Below, piece by piece: positions 12,862 to 42,419 of a DNA stretch of 64,000 bases. Source of the stretch: Oscillospiraceae bacterium (GTDB lineage Bacteria; Bacillota; Clostridia; Oscillospirales; Oscillospiraceae); the NCBI GenBank assembly GCA_017619715.1, contig JAFZRS010000002.1, forward strand, positions 62,001 to 126,000, in the 5' to 3' direction. Position 1 is the first letter of the stretch; each line of letters begins with the position of its first letter. The notes below the pieces were generated by a model that was not told where the DNA came from, ran no database searches, and was given only the letters and a program-made list of their open reading frames with translations. The position numbers and the translations under genes are program-made.

Positions 12862-14295
12862 TCATTTTTCTTCCGGCTCTATAGGAAGGCAGATGGTCAC
12901 CACGGCGCCGCCGCCTTCGGCGTTGCCGATCTCAAACGTACCGCCGTGGCGCTGGACGATCTCGTCGCACACCGCCAGACCGATACCGCTGCCCCGCGCC
13001 TTGGAAGACCCCTTATAAAATTTCTGCTTCACATAGGGAAGCTCCGCCTCGGGAATACCGGGACCGTAGTCGCGGACGGTGATCCGGTACTGATCCTCCT
13101 CCTGCCGCATGGCGGCGACGATATGCTTACCCGATCCGCCATGCTTGGCGGCATTGTCCAGTACGTTGCAAAAGACCTGCTTGAGCCTCTCCGGATCGCC
13201 GGCAATGGGGCGCTCGTAGACCTGACCGCCTTCATCGTATTCCAGCGCGATACCCTCCTGCCGGAAGATCTCCCGGTAGGTGTAGATAGCGTCTTCAAAC
13301 TCTGCCTGCAGATCCACCGGCTCTATTTGCAGCGTAAACCTGCCGTCCTGCATTTTAGAGAATTCCAACAGCTCCTCCACCATATTGCTCAAGCGGCGGG
13401 ATTCCTTGAGAATAATGCCCAATCCCCTGTGTAGCTGCCTCGTGTCGTTGCCGTCGTCCGCCAGCAGCGTCTCCACCCAGCCGTTGATGGCGGTGAGGGG
13501 GGTACGCAGCTCGTGGGAGACTGATGAGATAAACTCCGTCTGCATCTTGTCGCTCTGGCTGATTTTCAGCGACATATCGTTGATATTGTCCACCAACTCG
13601 CCGATCTCGTCGGAGTAACGGTTGGGGATCTGAATGCCGTAGCTGCCGCCGGAGATGCGTTTGGCCGCCTCGCTGACCTCCGCCACCGGCGCCACCACGT
13701 TGTTGATGAAGATCAAGCTGGAAAATACCACCAGCAGCAGTACGCCCAGCAGCGCCGCCACCAGCGAAAGAATGGTAAAAAGCACCTGCCGGTCGATCTG
13801 GCGAGTGGAGGTAACATAACGCATGATCCCCACCACGGCGCCGTTGAACACCAGCGGACTGCTGACCGCCATGATCCGCTCTCCGGTGACGGGGTCGAGC
13901 CCCGTAAAGTGGGAGATATTGCCGCTCTCCAGCGCCTGCGCGATCTCCGGCGTGCCGGGAGACGTGCCTGCGGTCAGCCCTCGAGTAGACGTTACGGTCT
14001 TGCCGGAGGTGTTGAGAAATTGCAGCTCGATCACGTCGCTCTCATCGAAGCTCGCCACATACAGTGAAGCGGTGCGGTAGTATTCGTTGTAGCTGTTCAT
14101 GGTGTAGGTGTTAAAATAATCCGCGCCCGCCTTTGCCTTTGCCTCCAGAGAGGATTGCGCGCTGCCGAAGTAGATGTTGTTCACCGCGCCGGCTGCCAAA
14201 GAACCGATCAGGACCATGATGATCACCACCGGTCCGATGCTGTTGAGGATCCACCGTTTCCTTAGACCCCGTACCGCAAGTTTCCGTTTGAGCAA
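12862..14295 (-). CDS. Two-component sensor histidine kinase
   Basis: A 477-residue membrane kinase. One helix near residues 17-37 and another near 167-190 bracket an extracellular sensor region; a HAMP linker follows (about 192-245). The phospho-acceptor box SHELRTPLTAINGW lies near residue 260 and the ATPase has N (NVLDNAAKHG), G1 (DYGPGIPE) and G2 (GSGIGLAV) boxes. The start is a TTG with GGAGG nine bases upstream. It is 39 bp behind its response regulator. The signal is unknown; the sensor domain looks Cache-like but was not matched. Confidence 0.93.
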   Translation of the reverse strand: MLKRKLAVRGLRKRWILNSIGPVVIIMVLIGSLAAGAVNNIYFGSAQSSLEAKAKAGADYFNTYTMNSYNEYYRTASLYVASFDESDVIELQFLNTSGKTVTSTRGLTAGTSPGTPEIAQALESGNISHFTGLDPVTGERIMAVSSPLVFNGAVVGIMRYVTSTRQIDRQVLFTILSLVAALLGVLLLVVFSSLIFINNVVAPVAEVSEAAKRISGGSYGIQIPNRYSDEIGELVDNINDMSLKISQSDKMQTEFISSVSHELRTPLTAINGWVETLLADDGNDTRQLHRGLGIILKESRRLSNMVEELLEFSKMQDGRFTLQIEPVDLQAEFEDAIYTYREIFRQEGIALEYDEGGQVYERPIAGDPERLKQVFCNVLDNAAKHGGSGKHIVAAMRQEEDQYRITVRDYGPGIPEAELPYVKQKFYKGSSKARGSGIGLAVCDEIVQRHGGTFEIGNAEGGGAVVTICLPIEPEEK

Positions 14296-14334
14296 CGCGT
14301 TTTCGCCTCCCTTTTCAAGTATTGGTTCGTTCGA

Positions 14335-15018
14335 TCAGAAGCCCCATTTGTATCCGTAGCCCCAGACGGTGGTAATGTAGGACGGATTCGTGGGATTGTC
14401 CTCAATCTTCAAGCGCAGGCGGCGGATATTCACATCTACGATCTTCAACTCGCCGAAGTAGTCCTTACCCCAGACGGTGTCCAGAATCTCCTCCCGGGAC
14501 AGCGCCCGGCCGGAACTCTCCATAAACATCTTGATAATGGCGTATTCCACCTGGGTCAGCTTGATGCGCTGACCGTTCTTCTCCAGCGTCCGGTTGCGGG
14601 TATTGAGCAGAAACGGCGGCTGACGAATCTCGCCGTCGGGAATCTCCGCCGCGCCGCTGCGCCGCATCAGGGCGTCCACCCGCGCCGTCAGCTCCGCCGG
14701 GGAGAAGGGCTTGGTCACGTAATCATCGGCGCCGGTCATCAAGCCGGTCACCTTATCCATCTCCTGCGACCGTGCTGTCAGCATAATAATCCCGATATGG
14801 GTGTTGCCGGCGCGAATACGGCGGCACACCTCAAACCCGTCGATCCCCGGCAGCATGATGTCCAACAGCGCCACCCGAACGTCGCGGTGCTGCTGCAGTT
14901 TTTCCAACGCCTCTTCGCCGGTGGCCGCCTCCACTACCTCGTAGCCCGCGCGGCTGAGATTGATGACGATAAAACTCCGGATATTCGCCTCGTCTTCCAG
15001 TACCAGTACTTTTTTCAT
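14335..15018 (-). CDS. OmpR/PhoB-type response regulator
   Basis: A 227-residue regulator: receiver domain with phosphorylation Asp in ALLDIMLPGIDGFE (about residue 53) and Lys in VTKPFSP (about 103), then a winged-helix domain (residues 130-227) ending in a VWGYGYKW signature. It is partnered with the downstream kinase and lies 19 bp after the lipoprotein gene. Confidence 0.95.
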   Translation of the reverse strand: MKKVLVLEDEANIRSFIVINLSRAGYEVVEAATGEEALEKLQQHRDVRVALLDIMLPGIDGFEVCRRIRAGNTHIGIIMLTARSQEMDKVTGLMTGADDYVTKPFSPAELTARVDALMRRSGAAEIPDGEIRQPPFLLNTRNRTLEKNGQRIKLTQVEYAIIKMFMESSGRALSREEILDTVWGKDYFGELKIVDVNIRRLRLKIEDNPTNPSYITTVWGYGYKWGF

Positions 15019-15037
15019 TCGTCCGGACCGTCCTTTC

Positions 15038-30611: not shown

Positions 30612-30952
30612 GCCGTCTCCTCCGCCAGAATACCCAGTTTTTGCAGCAGTGAAAGATACGCCTCCTCCAGTTTCCGGTACGGGGTAAAGGCGGCGCGGCT
30701 TCGTGCCACCAGAATCACGTCGTACCCGGGGTGAAGCTTTTCCCGGTTAAGCCGGTAAATCTCCCGCAACCGGCGGCGCACCTTGTTGCGCACCACGGCT
30801 TTTCCCACTTTGGTGCTCACCGTAACGCCTAAACGGTTCCCTGCGCCGTTGCGGCGGCAATAGACCACCAGAAACGGAGACACCGCCGACCGGCCCTTGC
30901 GGTAGATCCGGCGGAATTCACGGTTCTCTTTTACCGTTCCTTCTGCGCGCAT
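30608..30952 (-). CDS. rnpA: Ribonuclease P protein component
   Basis: A 114-residue basic protein of RNase P, which matures tRNA 5' ends. The RNR signature appears as [14 protein letters not shown] (about residues 55-68). The start is ATG 30952 behind GGGAGGAGAG; the longer open frame upstream overlaps the rpmH region and lacks a site. Confidence 0.94.
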
Positions 30953-31065
30953 GGCTGTCTCTCTCCTCCCGGGAGTTCCCCGATGGGAACGACTGCAAGG
31001 GACGGCAGGTCTTCTGGTAACCACCGTCCCTATTTCTTCTGCTTATCGCCTCACTGTCAATCCTC

Positions 31066-41444: not shown

Positions 41445-41879
41445 ATGAAAAAAGTAAACATCTACACCGACGGCGCTTGCAGCGGCAACCCCGGACCGGG
41501 GGGCTGGGGCGCGATTCTGGAATACAACGGCACGGAAAAGGAAATCTCCGGCGGCGAGGCGGAGACCACCAACAACCGCATGGAGCTTACAGCGGTGATC
41601 CGCGCACTCTCGTTGCTGAAAGAGCCGTGTCAAGTGGAGCTGTGGTCCGACTCCAAATACGTGATCGACGCGCTGGAAAAGGGTTGGGTCTACGGCTGGA
41701 AAAAGAAAGGCTGGATCAAGTCCGACAAAAAGCCTGCGCTGAACGTTGATCTGTGGGAACAGCTCTTAAAATTGACAGCGCGTAATGAGATGCACTACCA
41801 CTGGATCAAGGGACACGCGGAGAACGAGAAGAACAACCGGTGCGATCAGTTGGCGGTGGCGGAGAGCAAGAAGTTTTGA
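41445..41879 (+). CDS. rnhA: Ribonuclease HI
   Basis: A 144-residue enzyme that removes RNA from RNA-DNA hybrids. The catalytic D-E-D-D set is in place: YTDGACSGNPGPGGWG (Asp at 7), the MEL glutamate near 50, LWSDSKYVI, and HWIKGHAENEKNNRCDQLA. AGGAGCAGGG precedes the ATG. Confidence 0.95.
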   Translation: MKKVNIYTDGACSGNPGPGGWGAILEYNGTEKEISGGEAETTNNRMELTAVIRALSLLKEPCQVELWSDSKYVIDALEKGWVYGWKKKGWIKSDKKPALNVDLWEQLLKLTARNEMHYHWIKGHAENEKNNRCDQLAVAESKKF

Positions 41880-41882
41880 GAG

Positions 41883-41938
41883 TTTACAAACCGTTCACGA
41901 TGCTTTCACGATTCGGACATTTTTGTAAGATATATTAT
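41883..41938 (+). promoter_or_regulatory. Candidate Pho-box promoter
   Basis: Direct repeats TTTACA (41883), TTCACG (41894) and TTCACG (41905) lie 11 bp apart, with a weaker GACATT at 41916. They end about 20 bp upstream of a -10-like TATATTAT (41931-41938) that has no -35 match. In Bacillus PhoP binds TTAACA-type repeats with the same 11-bp period at -60 to -20. No gene follows on this strand. Confidence 0.55.
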
Positions 41939-41987
41939 AGAGGCACCAAGGAAACAGTTTCCGGTGTGATTTTCTCTCTCCTAACAC

Positions 41988-42030
41988 AATAGGGAAACAC
42001 CCCGCCGAGAAGGCGGGGCGTTTCCCTATT
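41988..42030 (+). terminator. Strong GC-rich hairpin, possible terminator without T-tract
   Basis: AATAGGGAAACACCCCGCC pairs with GGCGGGGCGTTTCCCTATT around a GAGAA loop. It lies after rnhA and the Pho-box promoter, but neither strand has a proper T-run. Confidence 0.55.
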
Positions 42031-42052
42031 CCAATTAAGAAACGGCACAAGA

Positions 42053-42078
42053 AAAAGGACACCCGTTTAGGGTGTCCT
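42053..42078 (-). terminator. Terminator of rpsT
   Basis: AAGGACACCC and GGGTGTCCTT pair around GTTTA, followed on the minus strand by TTTTTC. It is 14 bases beyond the rpsT stop codon. Confidence 0.85.
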
Positions 42079-42091
42079 TCAGTTTGGTTTA

Positions 42092-42355
42092 TCAACCAAC
42101 CTGGTTCAGCTTCAGCGTCAGCGCGCTCTTCTTGTGCGCGGCGTTGTTCTTGTGCAGCAGACCCTTGGCGGCGGCCTTGTCGATCGCCTTCACCGCCACT
42201 TTGTAAGTGCCCTCGGCCTCGGTGCGATTGCCTTCAACGGCAGCAGCCTCGAACTTCTTGATAGCGGTTTTGAGTGCGGACTTGTTGGCCTTGTTGCGAG
42301 CATTGCGAGCCTCTGCCACGAGAACGCGCTTTTTAGCAGACTTGATATTCGGCAA
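42092..42355 (-). CDS. rpsT: Ribosomal protein bS20
   Basis: An 87-residue S20 (PNIKSAKKRVLVAEARNARN ... LKTAIKKF), rich in Ala and Lys. The start is TTG 42355 with GGGGAGGTG five bases upstream; no ATG is suitable. S20 in E. coli also starts at UUG and represses its own translation, so the unusual codon may matter. Single gene with its own promoter and terminator. Confidence 0.95.
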   Translation of the reverse strand: MPNIKSAKKRVLVAEARNARNKANKSALKTAIKKFEAAAVEGNRTEAEGTYKVAVKAIDKAAAKGLLHKNNAAHKKSALTLKLNQVG

Positions 42356-42419
42356 ACCAAACACCTCCCCGGCATACAAATTTGCAGGTGGGACGCATAA
42401 TGCGCCCACGCAGGTTCAT

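Follow-up and report, generated by a model that had tools for sequence, protein, structure and literature searches.

Judged by comparison among relatives, the locus described here is the gene of a real, previously uncatalogued family of small regulatory RNAs, kept beside the same neighboring gene. Comparative sequence analysis, centered on a window of 64,000 nucleotides (the whole stretch of DNA analyzed), yields the RNA gene, its conservation, its structure, and a promoter box that it has in common with RR1, a response regulator of the OmpR family. The best explanation of these features, and one we consider probable, is that the locus encodes a trans-acting RNA of ~90 nt. RR1 would bind 11-bp repeats that take the place of a -35 element and so switch the RNA promoter on, and it would control its own operon via the same box. 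The RNA itself, in which an unpaired UGUGAUUUUCUCUCUCC stretch lies between a 5' hairpin and a terminator hairpin, would pair with Shine-Dalgarno regions and repress translation, as has been proposed for the csRNAs of streptococci. Transcription, binding by RR1, the signal, and repression of targets are the parts of this scheme that we infer.

The repeats begin at 41883 (TTTACA), 41894 and 41905 (TTCACG in both cases) and 41916 (a weak GACATT), i.e. in steps of 11 bp each. The first-pass annotation had described three such repeats at exact spacing and a weaker fourth, and direct reading bears this out. It had placed the start of transcription near 41945 and the repeats at -62, -51, -40 and -29; the layout holds, with the predicted start shifted to ~41943 and the repeats, consequently, beginning near -60, -49, -38 and -27. 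The good -10 without a -35 is there, too: TATATT follows the repeats, no -35 element is present, and a generic scan for sigma-70 promoters comes up empty on the + strand here. TTYAC-N6-TTYAC-N6-TTYAC has a single occurrence in the window, and 300 first-order Markov random sequences of that length have none. Direct repeats of the TTNACA type, 11 bp apart and upstream of a -10 that has no -35, are the mark of Pho-regulon promoters, and this is the arrangement found. The sequence supports an activator-dependent promoter of the OmpR/PhoB class, then, driving a small RNA with no gene attached. Of the PhoP-promoter geometry originally proposed, the OmpR/PhoB-type repeats survive; PhoP and phosphate lack support, there being neither Pst nor a pst-linked PhoB in the genome.

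Table 1. Predicted features of the small RNA locus and its flanks (positions are those of the window)
Feature	Position	Strand	Basis
rnhA (ribonuclease HI), conserved neighbor of the RNA gene	41445..41879	+	ORF; synteny by tblastn
Operator, predicted RR1 box: 11-bp direct repeats TTTACA-N5-TTCACG-N5-TTCACG-N5-GACATT	41883..41921	+	Sequence, chance count, conservation
-10 element TATATT	41931..41936	+	Distance to the first repeat (48 bp) the same in all other copies
Predicted small RNA, ~90 nt, with predicted ends	41943..42032	+	Distance from -10, conservation, fold z -6.1
5' hairpin: CACC (41944-41947)/GGTG (41963-41966), GGAAA (41950-41954)/TTTCC (41958-41962)	41944..41966	+	Covariation
TGTGATTTTCTCTCTCC, conserved, mostly unpaired anti-Shine-Dalgarno stretch, presumed seed	41965..41981	+	Invariant columns, folds
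Terminator hairpin, 19-nt arms (41988-42006/42012-42030) 95% complementary	41988..42030	+	Folding, relatives
Second short hairpin, which probably ends convergent rpsT and may serve the RNA as a back-up terminator	42055..42079		Sequence
rpsT, convergent; the RNA gene sits between rnhA and rpsT	42092-42409	-	ORF

On the + strand within 41883-42030 there is no ORF of 60 aa or longer, and a coding reading was rejected: in the genus, RTG is followed at once by TGA, and in g30, length changes of 2 nt disrupt the frame. What had been noticed at the outset—about 85 gene-less bases with a pyrimidine-rich, anti-Shine-Dalgarno stretch and a strong hairpin—is what we see, at ~90 bases and with arms of 19 nt. 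As RNA, 41945-42033 folds at -39.9 kcal/mol (z = -6.1), far better than shuffled versions of itself. It opens with a 5' hairpin whose pairs covary; a pyrimidine stretch that hardly varies and an A/C tract follow, and a terminator hairpin of variable sequence closes it. RNAalifold predicts no pairs on the MAFFT alignment because the terminators do not align, and the structure was therefore checked copy by copy; in these folds the terminator sequence is altered in most relatives, and the pairing is retained. At the third basal pair of the 5' hairpin, most of the genus has A-U and most of the other genera have G-C, with G-U here and in g112; the upper stem varies as well, between AAGGA/UCCUU and GGGG/CCCC types, with A-U and G-C pairs. 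Downstream of this short hairpin comes TTTTCTCTCTCC (41970-41981). The pyrimidine (CU) stretch reads UCUCUCUCCU in the genus and CUCCCUCCU in other genera, both forms being complementary to Shine-Dalgarno sequences, and at least 8 of its 10 bases are unpaired in 28 of the 35 copy folds. The copy in this genome is slightly reduced: it lacks one of the CU units, its A/C tract is shortened, and its U-tract is weak. In one relative (L014:1428-1547), the TGTGATTTTTCTCTCTC unit is doubled within a single RNA.

BLASTN detects the element in its own genome and 15 of the 31 congeners, and the 67 genomes from outside the genus gave no match; the aligned genus copies have the promoter repeats and the RNA core TGTGATTTTCTCTCTCTCCTAACAAACACAC in common. 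A profile built from the RNA alone (R2) recovers clear members from four further genera of the family, each with the same 11-bp repeats upstream. Since the promoter was excluded from R2, the repeats at these distant matches amount to an independent test, which the family passed. A second profile, R3, adds one further genus, likewise with the repeats. In these other genera the core is GATGYG(A)TTTYCTCCCTCCTAAAA, followed by the A/C tract and then the terminator. The RNA is represented by 35 distinct copies (identical sequences removed; one genome may recur under a G handle and as a public record) in six genera of one family of Oscillospiraceae-type gut bacteria: g1, to which this genome belongs, g30, g103, g112, g114 and g118. 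All 34 copies for which upstream DNA is available have the first three repeats, with at least 13 of 15 consensus positions, and in all 34 the distance from the first repeat to a -10-like hexamer is exactly 48 bp. Extra copies, in tandem or nearby and each with a box of its own, occur in several genomes (L016, L017/L032 and L023).

Scanning a public genome collection for the core returned 17 records titled Oscillospiraceae, Ruminococcaceae or related clostridial genomes, ‘Candidatus Cacconaster stercorequi’ among them, and, besides these, four chance matches without promoter or terminator. Spread beyond the family (f1) was rejected: the outside R3 matches, among those listed, have neither box nor terminator and look like chance. 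A phage origin was rejected also, the core matching no viral contig. In Rfam, the locus and its relatives find nothing at gathering score, and sub-threshold scores fall far under the cut-offs of the families concerned.

Within the genus, the RNA gene is flanked by rnhA, usually together with trmO, and has gyrA or nadE close by (tblastn); in the other genera, most copies have rnhA or rpsT nearby. The comparative evidence is that the locus is ancestral, with a mobile origin disfavored. It also bears on the suggestion that this is a promoter left behind by a lost operon, i.e. an orphan promoter and terminator with no functional RNA between. That no gene lies between the two is as this suggestion would have it, but the RNA is conserved in sequence and structure in six genera, occurs as tandem duplicates, and holds a common position beside rnhA; the conservation of RNA and 11-bp repeats together argues strongly against a remnant, and we give the idea practically no credence. 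The small-RNA half of the first-pass annotation fares better, for the same repeats and the same RNA recur in the relatives as it hoped; the phosphate-starvation half finds no support, for want of Pst and PhoB.

RR1, the predicted regulator, is encoded at G000:C14:89874-90557, and the gene for a HAMP-type histidine kinase follows it. Upstream of RR1 in this genome stands TTTACAAAATGTTCA, and then TATAAT. Orthologues were gathered from 25 genomes (22 in RNA-bearing genera; 81-100% identical, with paralogues at 49% or less), and in 21 of those 22 the two-repeat box TTHACAnnnnRTTYA lies upstream; its distance from the -10 is 36 bp in 20 genomes and 37 bp in the remaining one. Upstream of RR1 paralogues, this box was found in none of five. 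Because the box is common to the RNA and RR1 promoters, and absent at the paralogues, RR1 is likely to be the activator of the RNA promoter and an autoregulator besides. The sole exception among the 22 is L125 (G148), with the RNA in its genome, yet no box upstream of RR1; there RR1 seems to lie directly behind another gene, and so may be read from another promoter. G018 and G030, both of g1, have RR1 with its box but fall outside the set of genomes found to have the RNA.

Across five genomes, the pattern TTYACANNNNRTTCA has 39 matches and its reversed control has 8. Only four matches fall in this genome, the RNA promoter and the RR1 promoter being two of them. We infer binding of RR1 to the RNA box from the boxes the two promoters share, it being the case that OmpR-family boxes resemble one another. 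Among solved structures, RR1 is similar to RegX3 and MtrA. It scores similarly against models of MtrA, YycF/WalR and PhoB, all below cut-off, and being about equally near to each it is left here without an established name. A second two-component pair, a HAMP kinase and the OmpR-type RR2, is encoded in the window at 12862-15024 (minus strand), with no RR1-type box seen upstream of its regulator gene.

Could the RNA be, as first supposed, a phosphate-starvation RNA activated by PhoB or PhoP? The repeats are of a type that fits promoters of the PhoB class, as do their 11-bp spacing and their placement with respect to the -10, and RegX3 is the best relative of RR1 among full-length solved structures. 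RegX3 is tied to phosphate in actinobacteria, and RR1 itself could sense phosphate on that account. But in this genome, which is 98% complete, no Pst and no pst-type PhoB/PhoR were found. The sole match to PF12849 turned out to be a LysR-type effector domain and was rejected as a PstS, and the genome consequently has no PstS; nor was a true PstS seen in nine RNA-bearing genomes, some of them incomplete. Where relatives do have pst (e.g. L140), a PhoB/PhoR pair with a PAS-containing kinase lies inside the cluster, and no orthologue of that pair was found in this genome. Its OmpR-type regulators number only three, RR1, RR2 and RR3, none of them a pst-linked PhoB. The pst-linked regulator of G004 is 43.6, 34.6 and 31.9% identical to these, respectively, and no counterpart of its PAS kinase adjoins any of the three. 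The partner kinase of RR1 has a HAMP, a HisKA and a HATPase domain and nothing that matches PAS.

The promoters tell a similar story. The pst genes of G007 have no TTYACANNNNRTTCA box, a PWM of the RNA box recovers none of the pstS loci, and the TTTACA-type repeats at several pst promoters of the genus are arranged differently, whereas the RNA box is the one found at RR1. We consider control by phosphate very unlikely, in consequence; the locus shows, rather, that the box of an OmpR-family regulator can be mistaken for a Pho box. The only candidate seen for phosphate uptake is an NptA-like sodium/phosphate cotransporter with PhoU domains (G000:C19:12683-14458; L044 2684-4459, minus).

As to what the RNA does, it most likely blocks translation starts by pairing with Shine-Dalgarno regions. 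We propose this because the unpaired region of CiaR-dependent csRNAs is complementary to Shine-Dalgarno sequences and start codons. Searching for targets of the pyrimidine stretch gave no clear one: a 17-base start-region pattern found none in this genome, nor any single start region with long complementarity, and the start regions of the 51 window genes pair with the seed, on average, no better than with shuffled seeds. The best single candidates here are rnpA (start near 30952, minus strand; duplex -20.7 kcal/mol) and gyrB (-16.2 kcal/mol), and in G007 rnfB, each from one genome. At 30950-30970 of the window (minus strand), the ribosome-binding site of rnpA, GGGAGGAGAGAGACAGCCATG, is strongly complementary to the CU stretch of the RNA.

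The want of a convincing common target lends some weight to a different possibility, namely that the RNA binds a protein, or sequesters another RNA through its pyrimidine tract, instead of blocking ribosome-binding sites. UGUGAUUUUCUC is conserved beyond what mere anti-Shine-Dalgarno pairing would need, and the relative with its TGTGATTTTTCTCTCTC unit duplicated in one RNA (L014) fits as well. That the stretch becomes CUCCCUCCU in other genera with its complementarity to Shine-Dalgarno sequences preserved speaks for the opposite, however, and on balance we rate this possibility as unlikely, preferring translational repression.

Boxes resembling that of RR1 turn up elsewhere. At the hrcA promoters of G002 (L159, near 1501) and G010 (L147, near 1501), GTTTACAAATAATTCA closely precedes the -35, which would fit a boost to the chaperone operon from the same regulator. 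The ctsR promoter of this genome (G000:C28:86634; L083, near 1501) carries TTCACAAATTGTTTACAGAAAGGTCA, an RR1-like variant box that overlaps the apparent CtsR operator; a box-like match in this genome was rejected on proving to be this promoter, with its CtsR-operator-like repeats. Single boxes occur before an alanine dehydrogenase gene and two symporter genes, named from their translations. Protein-quality or envelope stress might be the signal to which RR1 responds, but this stays a guess, because the hrcA and ctsR boxes are not found in all genomes. Broader still, and offered tentatively as something possible rather than probable, is the notion that the RNA family, which has several copies in some species, serves a core two-component system of Oscillospiraceae-type gut bacteria as a dedicated output, tuning translation widely by means of a generic anti-Shine-Dalgarno tract when the envelope or protein folding is under stress.

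Little has been charted of the regulatory RNAs in these gut bacteria, which are abundant and for the most part uncultured, and a targeted literature search on them returned nothing relevant. What emerges here is a well-delimited RNA family, a predicted regulator, and a strict promoter rule, the box lying 48 bp from the -10.

With the Pho-box promoters of PhoB and PhoP, the locus shares TTNACA-like repeats spaced at 11 bp in place of a -35; it differs in that its box recurs at the RR1 promoter, and not at pst promoters, and in that PhoB is absent from this genome. In RsaE/RoxS and IsrR, a pyrimidine-rich stretch is directed toward ribosome-binding sites, and a regulator of a specific stress is in control. 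These are Gram-positive small RNAs with C-rich regions (PMC4409812, PMC9410917). The likeness lies in that stretch and in that kind of regulator; the RNA described here, unlike them, has no Rfam match, has a CU repeat instead of separate C-rich motifs, and would answer to a different regulator.

The closest parallel is with the csRNAs of the CiaRH regulon of streptococci, whose unpaired region complements Shine-Dalgarno sequences and start codons (PMC3091779). The csRNAs belong to other bacteria and to another regulator, and the CiaR box, TTTAAG-N5-TTTAAG, is not the TTYACAAANNGTTCA found here; most of them have an anti-AUG (CAU), moreover, whereas the unpaired stretch of the copies listed here has no CAU. 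In design, nonetheless, the two are alike: similar short RNAs, several per genome, under one OmpR-family regulator (here a predicted one) that acts through a 6-bp direct repeat with N5 spacing (PMC3091779), and in both, two stem-loops flank an unpaired anti-Shine-Dalgarno region.
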